The notes under the pieces: generated by a model
What the model was told of the DNA's origin: nothing
The model's database searches: none
The model's input: only the letters and a program-made list of their open reading frames with translations
Translations under genes and position numbers: made by a program
In this document: piece by piece, positions 11,343 through 29,135 of the stretch
Layout: each line of letters begins with the position of its first letter
Position numbering within the stretch: position 1 is the stretch's first letter
Source of the DNA: Candidatus Nanopelagicus limnes
GTDB taxonomy: Bacteria; Actinomycetota; Actinomycetes; Nanopelagicales; Nanopelagicaceae
Length of the DNA stretch: 64,000 bases
Direction: 5' to 3'
Assembly (NCBI RefSeq): GCF_002287885.2
Contig: NZ_CP016768.2
Location: 372,001 to 436,000, forward strand

Positions 11343-12242
11343 ATGTCCGCAGCCCTGATCACCCAGTATGAAGAGCATTTGGCGCTGGTTAGAAATTTAT
11401 CGGATAACTCTATAAAAGGTTATGTCACAGATTTAGAGTCTTTTCTTAAGCACATGGAAAAACTTGGAATTGTTGAATTTAATCAATTAGAAATTGAACA
11501 CATCAGATCATGGCTGGCGAATTTACAAACCACCGGTGTTGCCAGAGCCACCTTAACTAGGCGAATAGTTTCAATTAGAGCTTTCACAAATTGGGCAGCA
11601 GCAAGTGGCTGGTTAACCTCAGACTTAGGTGCAAATCTTGCAATTCCAAAACCTCATAAAGTATTGCCAGAGGTTTTAAATGTTGATGAAGCTGCAACGG
11701 TATTAAAAGCACTCGAGGTTAAATCTGTTGAGGAGCCAAGTGCAGTAAATGTTAGAGATTTAGCATTGGTTGAGGTTTTATATGGATCAGGAATTCGAGT
11801 CTCAGAACTTTGTGGATTAAACCTAAGTGATGTTGATCGATCTAGAAATACCTTAAATGTAATTGGTAAAGGTGATAAGCAGCGGGTGGTGCCATTGGGA
11901 TTACCGGCAATGCGAGCGATTGATAATTACTTAAAAAGTGGCAGAGATGAGTTTGTAAACAATTCATCTGCTGATGCCTTGTTTCTAGGTTCTCGCGGCA
12001 AGCGAATTGATCAAAGAACTGTGCGCGAGGTTGTCTATGAGGCGATGAAAGCAGTTGGCGCCAAGATGGGACCACATGGACTTCGCCACTCTGCTGCAAC
12101 TCACTTGTTAGAGGGTGGAGCGGATTTGCGAACTGTGCAAGAAATTCTTGGACATGCATCTTTATCTACTACCCAGATTTACACCCATGTCTCACCTGAA
12201 CGTTTGCAAACTGCCTATAAGCAAGCACACCCAAGGGCGTAG
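11343..12242 (+). CDS. xerC: Tyrosine recombinase XerC/XerD type
   Basis: 299 residues: an N-terminal SAM-like core-binding domain (about 1-90) and a C-terminal catalytic domain. Catalytic residues are visible: the Arg in YGSGIRVSEL, the HGLRHSAATHLL box (HxxR), GHASLSTTQIYTHV with the second His and the nucleophilic Tyr. It resolves chromosome dimers at dif with its partner recombinase. XerC is preferred over XerD because it sits upstream of rpsB, as in other Actinobacteria. No integrase-associated or phage genes surround it. Confidence 0.9.
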   Translation: MSAALITQYEEHLALVRNLSDNSIKGYVTDLESFLKHMEKLGIVEFNQLEIEHIRSWLANLQTTGVARATLTRRIVSIRAFTNWAAASGWLTSDLGANLAIPKPHKVLPEVLNVDEAATVLKALEVKSVEEPSAVNVRDLALVEVLYGSGIRVSELCGLNLSDVDRSRNTLNVIGKGDKQRVVPLGLPAMRAIDNYLKSGRDEFVNNSSADALFLGSRGKRIDQRTVREVVYEAMKAVGAKMGPHGLRHSAATHLLEGGADLRTVQEILGHASLSTTQIYTHVSPERLQTAYKQAHPRA

Positions 12243-22731: not shown

Positions 22732-23634
22732 ATGGCTTTTCTGCACGCAGTTTCATCTGGAACTTCAGCTACAAAAAGCGTGTTAAAAAGTAAATCTCTC
22801 ACGCCCTACCTACTACTCGCACCAGGCTTAATTTGGTTAGTTACATTTTTTATTATTCCTATATTTTCATTGGCCAGCACATCAACAATGGTCAGACCCG
22901 ATGGCGCTCAAGTTGGGGTTTATGAACAAAAGCTTAGGTTTGCAAATTATGTAGATGCTTTTATTGCTAATCAAGACCAATACGTTAGATCTTTCTTCTA
23001 CGCAGCCCTTGCCACAATTTTAGCCCTTGCAATTGCATACCCACTTGCTTATGCAATTGCTTTTAAATCAGGTAAGTATCGAAATATTTTACTTGTCTTA
23101 GTTATTGCTCCATTTTTTACCTCTTTCTTATTACGAACTATTGCCTGGACTCAGATTTTGGCTGACTCTGGCCCTGTAGTTTCGACAATACAAGTATTGC
23201 CATTTGTGGATGAGTTGTTTCGAATTAACAACACCTCAACTGCAGTTGTGATTGGTTTGGCATATAACTTTCTTCCATTTATGACCTTGCCACTTTATGC
23301 AAGCCTTGAGCGAATTGATCCAAGAACTCTTGAGGCAGCAGGAGATCTTTATGCAAATGGTCTAACCACCTTTAGAAAGGTGACACTTCCATTATCTATG
23401 CCAGGTGTTGTTGCTGGCACACTTTTAACATTTATCCCTGCAGCTGGTGATTATGTGAACGCTGCGATCTTAGGTAATCCAAATACCAAGATGATTGGAA
23501 ATGTTATTGAGTCTCGCTTCTTTGCTGTGGTGGATTACCCAACTGCTGCTGCGCTTTCATTTACTTTAATGGCAACAATTTTAATTTTAGTAACACTTTA
23601 TATTCGAAAATCTGGAACGGATGAGTTGGTATGA
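22732..23634 (+). CDS. potB: Spermidine/putrescine ABC transporter permease
   Basis: 300 residues with six predicted membrane spans. The first follows a polar N-terminus (LLLAPGLIWLVTFFIIPIF). The cytoplasmic EAA loop is at LEAAGDLYANGLTTFRKVTLPLSMPG. It overlaps potC by four bases. It forms the translocation channel with PotC. Confidence 0.94.
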   Translation: MAFLHAVSSGTSATKSVLKSKSLTPYLLLAPGLIWLVTFFIIPIFSLASTSTMVRPDGAQVGVYEQKLRFANYVDAFIANQDQYVRSFFYAALATILALAIAYPLAYAIAFKSGKYRNILLVLVIAPFFTSFLLRTIAWTQILADSGPVVSTIQVLPFVDELFRINNTSTAVVIGLAYNFLPFMTLPLYASLERIDPRTLEAAGDLYANGLTTFRKVTLPLSMPGVVAGTLLTFIPAAGDYVNAAILGNPNTKMIGNVIESRFFAVVDYPTAAALSFTLMATILILVTLYIRKSGTDELV

Positions 23635-24458
23635 CAACTATCAACGCTCCAATGCCAAGTTTGAGTCATCGTGCCTCAAGATGGTTTTCCCGAAACTTAA
23701 TTAGAATTTATGCAGCGCTGGCATTTATCTATCTATTTATTCCAGTTGCCTACACATTTGCCTTCTCCTTTAATAATGCCGGAAAAAGCAACCTGGTTTG
23801 GCAAGGTTTTACTTTAGAAAACTGGAAAAACCCATGTGGTGCACCGCAAGTTTGTGAGGCGGTAGGAAACTCATTAAAGATTGGTGTGATCTCAACTTTA
23901 CTGGCCACCATATTAGGAACCATGATTGCTTTTGCATTAGGTAGATATAAATTCAAAGGGCGCACATCAACAAATCTTCTAATTTTCCTTCCAATGGCAA
24001 CACCTGAGGTTGTACTCGGCGCCTCTTTACTTGCAATGTTTTTAAACCTTCGAGTCAATCCTAGTTTTTGGACCATCGTTATCTCACACGTAATGTTTTG
24101 TATCTCCTTTGTAGTGGTAACTGTTAAGGCAAGAATTGCTTCACTTGATCCTCGGCTTGAACAAGCTGCAATGGACCTTTATGCAAATGAGAAGGAAACC
24201 TTTAGATATGTAACTTTGCCACTTGTTATGCCAGGTATTGCAGGTGCGGCTCTCTTGGCCTTTTCACTTTCCTTTGATGATTTTATTATTACTAATTTTA
24301 ACTCTGGCACAGTTTCAACATTTCCAAAGTTTGTTTATGTCTCAGCTGCTCGCGGAATTCCAGCACAAGCAAATGTGATTGGTAGTGCGATGTTCTTTAT
24401 TGCTTTAATTATTGTGATAGTCGGGCAAGTTGTTAGCCGGAAGAGAAAGAAGTCGTAA
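23631..24458 (+). CDS. potC: Spermidine/putrescine ABC transporter permease
   Basis: 275 residues with six membrane spans, paralogous to potB. The EAA loop is LEQAAMDLYANEKETFRYVTLPLVMPG. It ends 40 bases from the stop of a convergent small gene (24499-24642). No strong intrinsic terminator is seen; a weak GCTAA/TTAGC dyad lies at 24483-24503. Confidence 0.94.
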   Translation: MTTINAPMPSLSHRASRWFSRNLIRIYAALAFIYLFIPVAYTFAFSFNNAGKSNLVWQGFTLENWKNPCGAPQVCEAVGNSLKIGVISTLLATILGTMIAFALGRYKFKGRTSTNLLIFLPMATPEVVLGASLLAMFLNLRVNPSFWTIVISHVMFCISFVVVTVKARIASLDPRLEQAAMDLYANEKETFRYVTLPLVMPGIAGAALLAFSLSFDDFIITNFNSGTVSTFPKFVYVSAARGIPAQANVIGSAMFFIALIIVIVGQVVSRKRKKS

Positions 24459-24498
24459 GGAAAGCAAGAACTTTTAAGATAAGCTAATTTTTATTAAC

Positions 24499-24642
24499 TT
24501 AGCCGTCTAACCCATAAGGATCATTTTCATTTAAAGAGCGCTTTCTAATTCTAATTTTATGAATCGACTGGTCAGTTTCTGGATCATAGAACTCAATGCG
24601 CTTACCGAAAATTAAATCTGCAAGCCAGTCTAGAAAACGCAC
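24499..24642 (-). CDS. Small uncharacterised protein (47 residues)
   Basis: A minus-strand frame of 48 codons starts GTG at 24642 and ends TAA at 24499. GGAAGGA lies about five bases upstream of the GTG, a clear Shine-Dalgarno sequence. The protein begins with an amphipathic/hydrophobic helix (RFLDWLADLIFGKRIEF), then a charged middle with KIRIRKRSL and an acidic end. It is soluble or peripherally membrane-bound rather than membrane-spanning. Its codon use resembles the neighbours. Function unknown. It faces potC and diverges from the truncated speB copy. Confidence 0.65.
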   Translation of the reverse strand: MRFLDWLADLIFGKRIEFYDPETDQSIHKIRIRKRSLNENDPYGLDG

Positions 24643-24760
24643 TGGGTTCCTTCCTAAATTTATGTGTCTTCAATTTTGAAGAGACTGAATGCTACTGCTT
24701 TAACTGCTGTAATTGGCTATAGGTAGTCATTTTTTTACCTCACCAATTAACTACTGGATA

Positions 24761-24773
24761 TATACTTAAGCCT
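24761..24773 (+). promoter_or_regulatory. -10 element before the truncated speB copy
   Basis: TATACT at 24761-24766 lies seven bases before the ATG at 24774. The second speB copy has the same hexamer six bases before its ATG, so the duplicate keeps a promoter-like start. Confidence 0.55.
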
Positions 24774-24847
24774 ATGACCAATATCGGCAATATGTATGGC
24801 CCAGATTTCACCTTTCTTGGTATTCCAAGATGTGATTTAGATAAGCC
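24774..24847 (+). repeat. Direct repeat, left copy (74 bp, speB start)
   Basis: Matches 28137-28210 at 72 of 74 positions in the same orientation; the two differences are silent in the speB frame. Confidence 0.95.
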
Positions 24848-24857
24848 GTTTATTTAG
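24774..24857 (+). pseudogene. Truncated duplicate of the agmatinase 5' end
   Basis: The first 74 bases (24774-24847) match the start of the intact speB at 28137-28210 with only two differences. Both are third-position silent changes (Thr ACC/ACT and Gly GGT/GGC). After the codon for Lys24 the match ends, and the frame closes three codons later (P, F, I, TAG at 24855-24857), leaving a 27-residue remnant. The upstream -10-like TATACT is also present. This is the left junction of the segment carrying the two peptidases. Confidence 0.85.
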
Positions 24858-24871
24858 TTTTAATATCCATA
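24858..24871. repeat. 14-bp inverted repeat, left copy
   Basis: TTTTAATATCCATA at 24858-24871 is the exact reverse complement of 28089-28102. It starts 11 bases after the left speB repeat. The pair brackets the two peptidase genes over 3245 bases. AT-rich, so chance cannot be fully excluded. Confidence 0.6.
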
Positions 24872-25084
24872 CATATTCGGGCTATGTACGAACCTTCTAG
24901 ATTTCTAGAATTAGCAATAATCTACAGCCAGGGTCTGACATCTCCTAAATATTGAACGGATATAGGTCAGATTTGGGCGAATCTCGTTTAAAGCTAATCA
25001 AAAGAGAATGTCAGTGGTCTTTGACAGTATGTGGATACTGGGAGAGGTATTGAAATCATTCGCCTTTGTATTTAAGGTTAAGTT
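24872..25084. other. Non-coding region ahead of the first peptidase
   Basis: No gene is seen. A TTGACA at about 25027 could be a -35 element for the peptidase pair, but no good -10 lies at 16-18 bases. GGAGAGG at about 25040 is too far from the ATG to be its Shine-Dalgarno sequence; AAGGTTAAGTT just before ATG 25085 could serve. Confidence 0.4.
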
Positions 25085-26650
25085 ATGAAGAAAAAGGTAA
25101 TCGCTTGCTTATCAATACTTTCTCTATCTCTACCCCTAGTTCCAGCCAGTGCTGCAGTGAAAGCTGGGAGTGTTTGCAAAAAGGTCGGTATTACTTCAGT
25201 TGTATCTAGTAAAACTTATACATGCATTAAATCTGGAAAGAAATTGGTTTGGAATAAGGGAGTTAGTAAATCAATTAATTCTGGCAGTTCAGGCCGTGAT
25301 TGGGCATCAATACGTTCGACAGATGCTGGATTTATAAATGAATACAACGGCTGGACTACGTACGAAAAAGATCTAAGCGGAAAATTAGGAGAAATTCAGT
25401 CTGCTTATTTTAATTACTCTAGAGCCAGCGGAATGTATAGAATTGCAAAATATGAATTAGGTACCAGCAGACCCACGGCAACTCTTTCAAGTACTAGTTC
25501 CGACCTCCCAATTAGTCAGTGTCAAATTAGCGATCCACCTAACACAGGTTTAGCAGGTTTCCCAAATTTACTAGGTCCTGGTTCTAGAGACTATTTAAAT
25601 TCAATTAAAGTTCCTGGCCCAAAAATGGTTGTTCAAGTGATTCCCATATTTGCCCCTGACTCAGCAATGCCATTGAAATCTCCCATACAAGATTATGATG
25701 TTTACCTAGATTTTATTAAATCCTGGGCTGAATATTCATCTGATGGCGAGTCAAATATTCAAATTAGAGTACCTCAGAGTTATTTATCTTTTTCAAAAAA
25801 TCTTGCAAATTACAAACTTACGCATATAAATAATCATGATAATCCTGAAAATATTAGGTTTGCAAAAGATATGATCGCAGAAGTTGATTCAGCGATAGAT
25901 TTTACGGGTGCAAATGCCGTCTTAGTTGTTGTACCTCCTGGAACTCAACACAAAGTTTTTCAACAATCAGTGTTAAAAAATTTCACTACCAGTGAGGGGA
26001 AAATCAACTCTGGAATGTCTACGACTCCTCTTACACTTACAGGATTAAATGACTTAGACGATGCTAATAAGCGACTTTCAAACTTCATCGTTCCTTACTG
26101 GTGGCTTCATGAGTTCTATCACGCAGGGTACGGTTTTAATGACCATCACGGCGCTTGGAACAGTCCTGATAAGTATGGGTTAGGTGAGTGGACATTAATG
26201 AGTGGTCATGGGGGAGATTTATCTGCATGGGAAAAATGGATCCTTGGGTTTACAACGGATTCACAAGTGCATTGTTTAAATACCACTCAATCCCAAACTC
26301 GCTGGATTGCTCCTTCTAGTGTAAAAACTAAAGAGAAGAAATTGATTGTTATTCCTCTGACACAATCTAAAGGGATTGTCATTGAGTCTATTAGGCCTGC
26401 AGGGCTTTACTACAAGATTCCAAAGTTAAGTAATGGAGTACTTGTCTATGAAGTAAATCTTGATGTTAGAGATCCTGGCTTAGAACTTAAATTGGTACTT
26501 CCTACAAATAGAAATCCAGATCAACCGCCTACGTGGTTATCGCAAGCGACGCTTAGGGGGGGTGAATCTGTGGTTTCAAATGGCCATAAAATTACAATCG
26601 TTGAATCTGGTGATTTCGGTGATGTAATTAAAGTTGAGAAGGTTCCTTAA
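25085..26650 (+). CDS. Secreted M6-like zinc metallopeptidase (first of a pair)
   Basis: 521 residues. A Sec signal peptide (KKK, hydrophobic core, cleavage likely after ASA at about residue 23) is followed by a 35-residue Cys-pair module ending in GKKLVWNKG (to about residue 59). The peptidase part has HEFYH at 342-346, then an Asp/His-rich stretch, and GEWTLMSGHGGDLSAWEKWILGF, as in M6 immune-inhibitor-A-like enzymes. The C-terminal GVLVYEVN / GESVVSNGHKITI region also fits M6 proteins. The third zinc ligand is not at the canonical HExxHxxGxxH position. It is followed after three bases by a paralogue. Substrate unknown; probably an extracellular protein. Confidence 0.75.
   Translation: MKKKVIACLSILSLSLPLVPASAAVKAGSVCKKVGITSVVSSKTYTCIKSGKKLVWNKGVSKSINSGSSGRDWASIRSTDAGFINEYNGWTTYEKDLSGKLGEIQSAYFNYSRASGMYRIAKYELGTSRPTATLSSTSSDLPISQCQISDPPNTGLAGFPNLLGPGSRDYLNSIKVPGPKMVVQVIPIFAPDSAMPLKSPIQDYDVYLDFIKSWAEYSSDGESNIQIRVPQSYLSFSKNLANYKLTHINNHDNPENIRFAKDMIAEVDSAIDFTGANAVLVVVPPGTQHKVFQQSVLKNFTTSEGKINSGMSTTPLTLTGLNDLDDANKRLSNFIVPYWWLHEFYHAGYGFNDHHGAWNSPDKYGLGEWTLMSGHGGDLSAWEKWILGFTTDSQVHCLNTTQSQTRWIAPSSVKTKEKKLIVIPLTQSKGIVIESIRPAGLYYKIPKLSNGVLVYEVNLDVRDPGLELKLVLPTNRNPDQPPTWLSQATLRGGESVVSNGHKITIVESGDFGDVIKVEKVP
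25124..25260 (+). repeat. Paralogous direct repeat, copy 1 (signal peptide/Cys module)
   Basis: Aligns without gaps with 26699-26835, about 88% identical by eye. It covers the end of the signal peptide and the Cys-pair module; downstream parts of the two genes are far less alike. It points to recent duplication or gene conversion of this module. Confidence 0.85.
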
Positions 26651-26653
26651 ATC

Positions 26654-28048
26654 ATGAAAAATAAGTCAGTAATTCTTTCATCAGTACTTATTGCTTGCCT
26701 ATCTCTACCCCTAGTTCCAGCAAGTGCTGCTGTGAAAGCTGGAGGTGTCTGTAAAAAGGCTGGAATCACTTCAGTTGTATCTAGTAAGACTTACACATGT
26801 ATTAAATCTGGCAAGAAGTTGGTTTGGAATAAAGGAATCTCAACGACATCATCAGTTCAATTTGCTGAAGTTGGCACAACAGTAGATGTTGAATCTTGCA
26901 AGTTGTTAGATGCTAGAACTAACAAACTGCAGCCAAACAATGTTGGTTTTCCTCTTCAGGAAGATATCATTCCAGCAGCTGGCAATTTAAATGTAATTGT
27001 TATTCCAGTTGATTTCAGTGATAGGCCTGGAGGTCAATTACCTTCTGAATATTTGATTGATCAAACAAATAAAATGAATGAGTGGTACAGATTTTTCTCT
27101 GGTAATAAGGTGAATCTCTCCTTCCAAATCGGTAAAGAGTGGGTAAGGGCCCCGAAAGCTGACTCAGAATATGTTGTTCCAAAAAGCGTTGCAAATTCGG
27201 CAGGAGTTGCAGTAGACGTTCAATTTAAAATGGCCCAAGACATAGTCACTGCTTCTAACAATCAATTTGATTTTAAGAAATCAAATATTTTGTTTTTTTA
27301 TACGCCAACAGTAAAAAGTGTTGACCAAGATATGGGTGGCCGAGGTATAAGTTTGAATACATCTGATGGCGCAAAAAACTTCTTTTTTTGGGGTGGGGGC
27401 GCTTACCATTTTGATGATAGAAATATTAGAGCAAGTGTAAAAAGAGAAAAGATGTGGGCATTTTGGATTCATGAAATGCTTCACTCGCAAAGCTTGGCAC
27501 TACATTCACCTGCAAATGGTTCTTCAACGGGATTACATGCAGATCAGTATGGAAGTTCACTAGCAATTGATTCTTGGGAACTTTTTAGGCTGGGGTGGAT
27601 TGAGAATGCGAATGTTGCATGTCTTGATAATTCGCTTGGCATAAGCAATAGATTAATTCTAAAACCAATTGAGATGGGAAGTAAGATTGCTAGATTTGCC
27701 ATAATCAAGTTAAATTCCTATGAAGCATTAGTAATCGAATCTCGAAGACCCACTGGATACTCCAAGGAATGGAAGCCAGACCAAAAAGGAATCTTGGTTT
27801 ACAGAATTGATGTCAGAAATGACAACGATCGATCTGGTGAATCCACTGGCGATACGGGAAATTCACCTGCATTTCCAAAATGGGGATATTTGTTAAGTCC
27901 AGATTCCAAGAATTTAGAAACACTTACACCTTATGAAATTGAGCGTTATATTTTAAGAACTAACCAAACAATTACTTACTCAAACATTAGAATTAAATTG
28001 TTAAATTCTGCCACTGACAAGGATTTGGTAGAAGTTACTAAATCTTAA
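26654..28048 (+). CDS. Secreted M6-like zinc metallopeptidase (second of a pair)
   Basis: 464 residues. The signal peptide (cleavage after about residue 25) and Cys-pair module are nearly the same as in the upstream gene. Then comes an M6-type segment (NVIVIPVDFSDRPGG, WYRFFSGNKV). The catalytic motif is HEMLH at 273-277, with a further His seven residues after the motif, followed by DSWELFRLGWI. The C-terminal KGILVYRID region matches the M6 pattern. It starts three bases after the first peptidase stop, so the two are almost surely co-transcribed. Function and substrate are inferred only at the level of extracellular proteolysis. Confidence 0.75.
   Translation: MKNKSVILSSVLIACLSLPLVPASAAVKAGGVCKKAGITSVVSSKTYTCIKSGKKLVWNKGISTTSSVQFAEVGTTVDVESCKLLDARTNKLQPNNVGFPLQEDIIPAAGNLNVIVIPVDFSDRPGGQLPSEYLIDQTNKMNEWYRFFSGNKVNLSFQIGKEWVRAPKADSEYVVPKSVANSAGVAVDVQFKMAQDIVTASNNQFDFKKSNILFFYTPTVKSVDQDMGGRGISLNTSDGAKNFFFWGGGAYHFDDRNIRASVKREKMWAFWIHEMLHSQSLALHSPANGSSTGLHADQYGSSLAIDSWELFRLGWIENANVACLDNSLGISNRLILKPIEMGSKIARFAIIKLNSYEALVIESRRPTGYSKEWKPDQKGILVYRIDVRNDNDRSGESTGDTGNSPAFPKWGYLLSPDSKNLETLTPYEIERYILRTNQTITYSNIRIKLLNSATDKDLVEVTKS
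26699..26835 (+). repeat. Paralogous direct repeat, copy 2 (signal peptide/Cys module)
   Basis: Partner of 25124-25260; same length without gaps, mostly silent differences. Confidence 0.85.
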
Positions 28049-28088
28049 GTTACGGCCTACTATTAGCCATTCTTTACACCTCTCAGAT

Positions 28089-28102
28089 TATGGATATTAA
28101 AA
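28089..28102. repeat. 14-bp inverted repeat, right copy
   Basis: TATGGATATTAAAA, exact reverse complement of 24858-24871. It lies 34 bases before the intact speB ATG. Confidence 0.6.
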
Positions 28103-28124
28103 TCACTATTGAACCAAGTACATA

Positions 28125-28136
28125 TATACTTCTCAC
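28125..28136 (+). promoter_or_regulatory. -10 element of a leaderless speB transcript
   Basis: TATACT at 28125-28130 is followed by six bases and the ATG at 28137. No Shine-Dalgarno sequence precedes the ATG, so a leaderless message is likely. Confidence 0.6.
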
Positions 28137-28210
28137 ATGACCAATATCGGCAATATGTATGGCCCAGATTTCACTTTTCTTGGCATTCCAAGATGTGATT
28201 TAGATAAGCC
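28137..28210 (+). repeat. Direct repeat, right copy (74 bp, intact speB start)
   Basis: Partner of 24774-24847, with two silent differences. This copy continues into the full-length gene. Confidence 0.95.
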
Positions 28211-29135
28211 TGAAAGCTATAAAGGTGCTGATGTAATTATTGTTGGCGCACCAATTGATAGCGGAACATCTCACCGATCAGGGGCGAAGATGGGTCCGCA
28301 AGCCATTCGAATGGGCGATTATCTTCCACATGATTCCTCCCGGCCACATCTTGCAATGCGAATTGATCCACTACAAAAACTAAAGATTTTTGATGCAGGT
28401 GACTTACTTATGTCAGGTGGAGATTTAGTGAATTCACTTAAGGTTTTAGAGGCTGCAACTGAGAAGATTTCAAAGGCTGGCGCAATCGCTGTTGTATTAG
28501 GGGGAGATCATTCAATTGCTTCAGCTGATGTGGCAGGAATTGCAAATCATTTAGGTAAGGGCAAAGTTTCAATGATTCATTTTGATGCTCATGCTGATAC
28601 TGGTGAGGATCAGTTTGGCGCACTAATTGGTCATGGCACACCAATGCGCAGATTAATTGAATCAGGATCTGTTCGTGGAGATCGCTTTTTGCAATTAGGA
28701 CTTCGTGGTTACTGGCCAGATGATGCCACTTTAAAGTGGATGGCTGGCAAAGGAATGAAATCTTATGAGATGACTGAGATTCATCACCGCGGAATGAAAG
28801 CGGTATTGGATGAATCATTTGCAATTCTTACCGATGGTTGTGATGGTGTCTTTTTATCAGTTGATATTGATGTAGTTGATCCAGGTATGGCGCCCGGTAC
28901 TGGCACACCAGAGCCAGGGGGAATGACAAGCAGAGAGTTACTAGAAGCGGTGCGAAGAATTTGTTTTGAATTACCAATTGTTGGCATTGACGTGGTTGAG
29001 GTTGCACCTGCTTATGACAGCAGCGATATCACTGCAATCTTGGCTAATCGAGTGGTGCTTGAGGCACTTAGTGCGATTGCGCTTAAGAAATCAGGCGGCG
29101 CGTATTCTGCAACTAGAAACTTACTAGATCGTTAG
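28137..29135 (+). CDS. speB: Agmatinase / ureohydrolase family protein
   Basis: 332 residues. It hydrolyses agmatine to putrescine and urea. Manganese-binding motifs of the arginase fold are present: GGDHS near 123-127, DAHADTGE near 150, and SVDIDVVDPGMAPGTGTPEPGG near 242-262. The neighbourhood (polyamine importer, aminoaldehyde dehydrogenase, GABA aminotransferase) supports agmatinase; guanidinobutyrase is the main alternative. Its first 74 bases are duplicated at 24774. It ends directly against the stop of the convergent gabT with no bases between. Confidence 0.9.
   Translation: MTNIGNMYGPDFTFLGIPRCDLDKPESYKGADVIIVGAPIDSGTSHRSGAKMGPQAIRMGDYLPHDSSRPHLAMRIDPLQKLKIFDAGDLLMSGGDLVNSLKVLEAATEKISKAGAIAVVLGGDHSIASADVAGIANHLGKGKVSMIHFDAHADTGEDQFGALIGHGTPMRRLIESGSVRGDRFLQLGLRGYWPDDATLKWMAGKGMKSYEMTEIHHRGMKAVLDESFAILTDGCDGVFLSVDIDVVDPGMAPGTGTPEPGGMTSRELLEAVRRICFELPIVGIDVVEVAPAYDSSDITAILANRVVLEALSAIALKKSGGAYSATRNLLDR

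Follow-up and report, generated by a model that had tools for sequence, protein, structure and literature searches.

The 5′ end of speB as a likely recurrent attachment site of integrase-less, peptidase-bearing cassettes in freshwater Nanopelagicales

Tycheposons carry cargo at tRNA genes and contain a tyrosine recombinase within the element, and integrons collect single-gene cassettes with folded attC sites by means of the IntI recombinase, which acts in trans. The tandem ssrA islands of Dehalococcoides have target-end copies as their borders and a conserved motif next to each repeat, and are inserted in the T-loop; among them, 15 islands without an integration module were interpreted as cis-mobilizable elements (CIMEs) mobilised by accretion (PMC3146451). 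Elements at the 5′ ends of dusA (IMEVchUSA3) and prfC (the integrative and conjugative element SXT) restore the 5′ end of their target together with a new promoter (PMC8409611). Freshwater Methylophilaceae are known to have additive flexible genomic islands with recurring end repeats of tRNA-Lys(ctt) (PMC10872708). The locus considered here is the junction of potC and the agmatinase gene speB in Candidatus Nanopelagicus limnes. It lies in a stretch of 64,000 nucleotides (contig NZ_CP016768.2, positions 372,001 to 436,000)—the window. This junction likely holds members of a family of CIME-like cassettes that lack an integrase and use three targets, for which the 5′ end of speB is a recurrent attachment site. 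Such cassettes have probably been inserted repeatedly at the start of this polyamine gene in freshwater bacteria, each supplying a new gene beginning and probably a promoter. In streamlined freshwater actinobacteria, strain-to-strain variation is great even though the genomes are tiny and mobile elements have seldom been recognised in them. The cassettes would offer these bacteria a concrete way of acquiring and exchanging secreted proteases at three exact sites with the target gene unbroken, and would account for odd gene fragments likely to be dropped during annotation.

The window genome (G000) is that of a streamlined freshwater actinobacterium and consists of one closed contig of 1.24 Mb with 100% completeness. 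Coordinates are window positions on the + strand unless stated otherwise. The start of speB is present twice as a 74-nucleotide (nt) direct repeat (24774–24847 and 28137–28210; 97% identical), with differences at nt 39 (ACC/ACT) and nt 48 (GGT/GGC) that are both silent. The left copy, the displaced former 5′ end, is read in frame for 27 codons (MTNIGNMYGPDFTFLGIPRCDLDKPFI) and then meets a TAG. The complete agmatinase of 332 residues (28137–29135; PF00491, Arginase family, E=3e-83) starts only from the right copy, its re-supplied start. The 64-kb window has three direct repeats of at least 40 nt: the speB start, a 138-nt start common to the peptidase genes of the insert, and another repeat in coding sequence. 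In the whole genome, the 74-mer finds strong matches only at the two window copies, and an additional 32-nt match (E=0.007) is at chance level. The insert between the copies, which neighbours a unit with a 47-residue open reading frame (ORF), contains two peptidase genes and no integrase. A preliminary description, made from the letters alone, had reported the duplication with its TAG-ended left copy, the two silent third-codon differences, two paralogous signal-peptide peptidase genes between the copies, and no transposase or integrase. Coordinates and frames agree with it, both peptidase ORFs share an N-terminal module, and the insert is indeed devoid of an integrase.

In 25 genomes of the genus, searched with the 74-mer and SpeB, the potC–speB interval was read wherever it could be fetched. 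The final gene of the pot operon is potC (23631–24458 in the window). The junction is empty in seven genomes: the stop codon of potC and the ATG of speB overlap (ATGA) in G002, G009, G011, and G020, and a gap of about 16–26 nt separates the genes in G003, G014, and G012. It is filled in 11 (G000, G001, G005, G007, G010, G016, G017, G018, G019, G022, and G023). The filler measures 0.2–3.7 kb and varies in content, with peptidases, a VanY-type carboxypeptidase (PF02557), a putative lipoprotein on the opposite strand, and the 47-residue ORF as cargo types. Displaced speB starts are found in five filled genomes (G000, G001, G007, G017, and G023). In the tree, sister genomes are of unlike state: G012 is empty and G023 filled, G003 and G014 are empty and G017 filled, and G002 and G009 are empty and G000 and G007 filled. 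In a second genus (g17), displaced copies abut potC in G051 and G091, with the relatives G072, G040, G106, G111, and G116 empty; a third genus contributes an orphan displaced speB start at another locus (G187). In G007, G017, G051, and G091, the left copy retains the host potC tail upstream, and the right copy is preceded by new DNA; G051 is exceptional in that 26 nt of potC are also repeated. An insertion, as the preliminary description had proposed, is thus borne out by the potC–gabT interval, with seven empty genomes among the relatives compared; the same duplicated structure in all relatives, which would argue otherwise, did not occur. An assembly artefact or one-off local duplication has a negligible probability: the genome is a closed single contig, and the explanation is refuted because the same architecture, with other cargo, recurs in independent isolate, metagenome-assembled, and single-cell genomes.

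By its sequence layout, the architecture is that of site-specific integration with target restoration. A cassette would enter at or just after the start codon region of speB, the old start would stay on the left as a displaced fragment, and the right end of the cassette would bring a promoter-like TATATACTT motif and a new start joined in frame to the rest of speB. Because the cassette supplies this in-frame start, speB is intact, though severed from the pot operon. A later cassette would repeat the process and thereby create a tandem series. As in the elements at dusA and prfC, the 5′ end of speB is replaced in frame below new upstream DNA and stays open over 332 codons. Those elements, however, are large and encode an integrase and mobility genes, whereas the units described here encode no target-specific integrase and stack in tandem.

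Two successive insertions are recorded in the window, as read from the aligned units: a 315-bp unit with the 47-residue ORF and then the peptidase unit. The older unit (24459–24773, no strand assigned) lies between potC and the left speB start and aligns to units in G017 and G018. Its ORF (24499–24642, − strand) is 72–91% identical in G001, G017, and G018 and has no family match. In G017 and G018, this unit immediately precedes an intact speB; the version in G001 is more diverged. The G017/G018 unit ends with GGATATATACTTAA(T/G)CC(T/C) followed by ATG, and the same sequence stands ahead of the left copy in the window. Therefore, the left copy is read as the working start after the first insertion—an earlier speB start, already re-supplied by the 315-bp unit—and the peptidase unit as the second arrival. 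The same step is seen in the sister genomes G018 (potC, 47-residue ORF, speB) and G001 (potC, 47-residue ORF, left copy, peptidase, speB). G017 keeps the start that the first unit displaced (42 nt), and this oldest copy is gone from the window. A TATATACTT motif is found before the left start (24759–24767), where it would be the putative speB promoter from the older unit, and again before the right start (28123–28131), where the peptidase unit would provide the putative new one. Such motifs stand ahead of the ATG at many filled sites, and their position and likeness to a −10 box suggest that they are probably promoters. Hence, the acquisition envisaged in the preliminary description stands as an insertion but not as a single event, since two serial ones are recorded.

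The displaced start in the window is followed by an element-specific flank (24848–24930; GTTTATTTAGTTTTAATATCCATACATATTCGGGCTATGTACGAACCTTCTAGATTTCTAGAATT...), which is conserved in G001, in G003 at another locus, and partly in G007. Next comes a segment of about 48 nt (24931–24978; GGGTCTGACAT...AGGTCAGATTTGGGCG) that is common to cassettes at tRNA-Lys and tRNA-Val genes. A profile built from 30 tRNA-associated sites—all in other genomes and none at speB—matches the window segment with E=1.2e-11 and the copies in G001, G003, and G007 with 1e-10 to 5e-9. The segment occurs in 35 of the 296 family genomes and in 9 of the 17 genera. At the tRNA sites, it follows an exact 3′-end copy of tRNA-Lys(CTT) (22–25 nt) or tRNA-Val(TAC) (19–20 nt). 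The break in the tRNA copies lies within or adjoining the T-loop; the intact tRNA is positioned further along in the same sense, and the segment faces it wherever it is on the contig. From the displaced tRNA end to the start of the profile, the distance is 70–71 or 82–83 nt in 23 of 23 pairs at the fetched loci. As the tRNA loci were selected for carrying the segment, weight is placed on the constant spacing and the displaced end and not on the presence of the segment. Tandem arrays comprise up to four units of the same direction (G009, locus L126). HExxH peptidases homologous to those of the window are cargo at tRNA-Lys (G009, G048, G273, and G269) and at tRNA-Val (G002, G004, and G003), and the single-cell genome SCGC AAA278-I18 (G003) contains a cassette with a speB-type end within a tRNA-Val array. 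Where the target of a further segment site can be recognised, it is once more tRNA-Lys or tRNA-Val, and some sites are too decayed to assign; in the window genome, a decayed tRNA-Val site is present at genome position 970372. The family architecture would hence read: displaced target end, 65–83 nt, segment of about 48 nt, one or more secreted peptidase genes, and intact target. The "unknown element" that the preliminary description had offered as one source of the insert is therefore retained as an element without transposase or integrase, but not as an isolated one, since it belongs to a cassette family with the segment and peptidase cargo at tRNA-Lys and tRNA-Val.

This arrangement resembles that of the Dehalococcoides ssrA islands in its tandem units bounded by target-end copies, its conserved motif, its break in or beside the T-loop, and, as in 15 of those islands, its lack of an integration module. 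As in CIMEs, the target-end copies bound the units with the intact target on one side, and the window units carry no integrase or transfer genes of their own, only the 47-residue ORF and two peptidases. In contrast to the islands, the 5′ end of a protein gene is also a target, the units measure only 0.3–3.4 kb with one or two genes, and three targets are used by one family. The Methylophilaceae islands are likewise found in streamlined plankton and repeat a tRNA-Lys(CTT) end through a variable island; they belong to another phylum and have another repeat sequence, and the accessible part of the source describes no speB target and no common segment for several targets (PMC10872708).

The segment could instead be the promoter or leader of the peptidase gene family, unrelated to movement, with gene and leader duplicated together into hotspots. 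We consider this improbable. It would fit the position of the segment about 90 nt ahead of the cargo ATG in several cassettes and its lack of an RNA fold (27 sequences gave no consensus structure). Against it, the segment stands at fixed spacing behind displaced target ends and is also found ahead of an unrelated small multidrug resistance (SMR)-type transporter gene (L084). Promoter and attachment-region roles can coexist: the segment may bind a recombinase, drive the cargo, or do both. Two of its sub-blocks tend to co-vary in the alignment, TAGTCAAT with GGTCAGAT and TAGGGATG with GGATGGAT, which makes them look like putative paired protein-binding repeats. A search of Rfam returned a single sub-threshold match, which scored 24 bits where the gathering score is 208.

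Several observations weigh against site-specific integration at speB. No displaced speB copy is present at six filled junctions (G005, G010, G016, G018, G019, and G022). Where copies exist, they end at 42, 45, 49, ~57, 72, or 74 nt and hence show no fixed crossover point. The silent differences fit the two diverged, functional speB alleles of the preliminary description, but a comparison of speB nt 1–42 with the empty relatives did not tell a host-derived from an element-derived start. No integrase adjoins speB in any genome examined, and no serine recombinase (PF00239) is found in the genus. The window genome has just two PF00589 genes, of 310 and 312 residues, which are XerC- and XerD-like. 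In G001, an integrase-bearing element has a displaced end of 44 nt and no shared segment; thus, it is not a demonstrated helper.

These points bear on a reading without any site-specific enzyme, in which RecA recombines cargo-bearing DNA of relatives through potC/speB homology, and the displaced starts are illegitimate joins or stem from integration of circles through repeats of 42–83 nt. The varying end points (42–74 nt) mean that homologous recombination alone may suffice at speB. In G051, the additional 26 nt of potC bring the homology to about 80 nt; no integrase is present at speB, and within a genome, left and right copies are alike, with cargo just 44% identical in protein. Nevertheless, the segment stands at constant spacing behind tRNA ends of 19–25 nt, which are short for RecA, integrases use these tRNA genes, and every repeated insertion joins within the first 74 nt of speB. 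We therefore regard RecA alone as a minority possibility, although recombination in the flanks surely contributes to the spread between genomes. The dyad TCTTGGTATTCCAAGA (speB nt 41–56) was considered as a crossover site and dropped because some displaced copies stop before it.

For cassettes moved by a site-specific enzyme, a trans-acting tyrosine recombinase is the likely mover. Tyrosine integrase genes immediately adjoin tRNA-Lys in two genomes (G001 and G011) and tRNA-Val in one (G134); both tRNA genes are thus used by integrases in the family. The candidate would be a tyrosine integrase of elements that occupy these same sites transiently. Because tRNA genes serve integrases, none is found at speB, and only two Xer-like proteins are encoded in the window genome, movement in trans or accretion with passing helpers, probably continuing today, is proposed, together with cell-to-cell spread by homologous flank recombination. 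The DNA between the G134 integrase and its tRNA-Val (L180:2500–2693) weakly resembles the reversed segment (p=0.003), but as 1 of 16 comparisons this is too weak after correction. In IMG/VR, searched as a phage source, no contig matched the segment, the speB start patterns, or the tRNA-Val end, one contig had a tRNA-Lys-like end, and no close relatives of the two tRNA-target integrases were found. The host XerC/XerD pair, as used by integrative mobile elements exploiting Xer recombination (IMEX), is a very unlikely mover. Its members are the sole PF00589 proteins of a complete genome, but their presence is uninformative because nearly all genomes have Xer; furthermore, the cassettes showed no dif-like site, and three different targets are in use. 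One Xer-type gene is situated inside the window at ~11676–12200, ~16 kb upstream of speB, and several relatives have it at a similar distance on the same contig.

Tycheposons share with these cassettes the placement of cargo at tRNA genes, but no recombinase is contained in the cassettes: the units at speB have a protein gene as their target, and the tRNA arrays match only the half of that scheme that concerns tRNA integration. With integron arrays, the cassettes have in common single-gene units arranged head to tail, a recurrent site between them, and—as proposed here—a recombinase in trans. An integron proper was rejected: none of the 296 family genomes exceeds the TIGR02249 (IntI) cut-off, the weak matches are Xer-like, and the segment has no conserved fold. 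More speculatively, and only as a tentative possibility, one pool of cassettes with a common recombination segment of ~48 nt would swap cargo among the tRNA-Lys 3′ end, the tRNA-Val 3′ end, and the speB 5′ end, served by a candidate trans-acting tyrosine recombinase. This would be a capture system for secreted-protease genes, integron-like in function but unrelated, in a streamlined freshwater lineage that ranks among the most abundant. If speB is indeed a recurrent attachment site, its start and the segment would be att-like sites usable in a hunt for the recombinase. A literature search, with subscription papers mostly outside it, revealed no account of integration at speB or of these arrays in Nanopelagicales. 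A cassette family with one segment at tRNA 3′ ends and at a protein-gene 5′ end, carrying one or two secreted peptidases per unit, was not found described elsewhere and seems new.

A few further loci are of note. In G005 (L060:3808–5583), a peptidase gene of 592 residues begins directly at the potC stop, and no speB start is left behind; this may be an insertion of the fusion type, or the left copy may have been lost. The orphan start of G187 (L188:984–1055) is located behind a gene for a secreted HExxH protein and beside aminotransferase and aldehyde dehydrogenase genes. In other genera (L202:1464–2837; loci in g3, g9, and g16), potC and speB are separated by the gene of a TrpB-like pyridoxal phosphate enzyme (NF009057) or by a similarly sized gap, and the empty state in the window genus may be a loss. 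One 10-kb contig of another genus (L237; G079, contig C89) carries both speB and a cassette site of the tRNA-Lys type.

The cargo of the younger unit consists of gene A (25085–26650, 521 residues), a predicted secreted metzincin-type peptidase with HEFYH and an M6/immune-inhibitor-A-like fold, and gene B (26654–28048, 464 residues), a paralogous, M6-like secreted peptidase with HEMLH. Both show a signal peptide-like start, HExxH, and a common N-terminal module. The module lies in the 138-nt start that the two genes share (25124–25261 and 26699–26836; 88% identical), which encodes the signal peptide and KAG..C..G..YTCIKSGKKLVW. In common with M6 metallopeptidases, gene A bears HExxHxxGxxD, and its structural model (predicted local distance difference test, pLDDT, 68.5) aligns to 4yu5 over 331 residues with Z 14.2, the next unrelated rows being at most 8. 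The model, which covers gene A only, assigns it an M6-like (immune inhibitor A) fold with HExxH. Partial matches to TIGR03296 (M6-metalloprotease) are weak (E=9e-9 and 3e-7) and lie below the curated TIGR03296/PF05547 threshold. Unlike typical M6 enzymes, the window proteins have no match in a Pfam search and possess a new N-terminal module; a PDB sequence search with the peptidase profile gave weak matches only (E at least 0.4). At many cassette loci, a near-constant signal peptide and KAG..C..G..YTCxKSGKKLVW module precede very different catalytic domains, as if domains had been swapped behind an invariant start.

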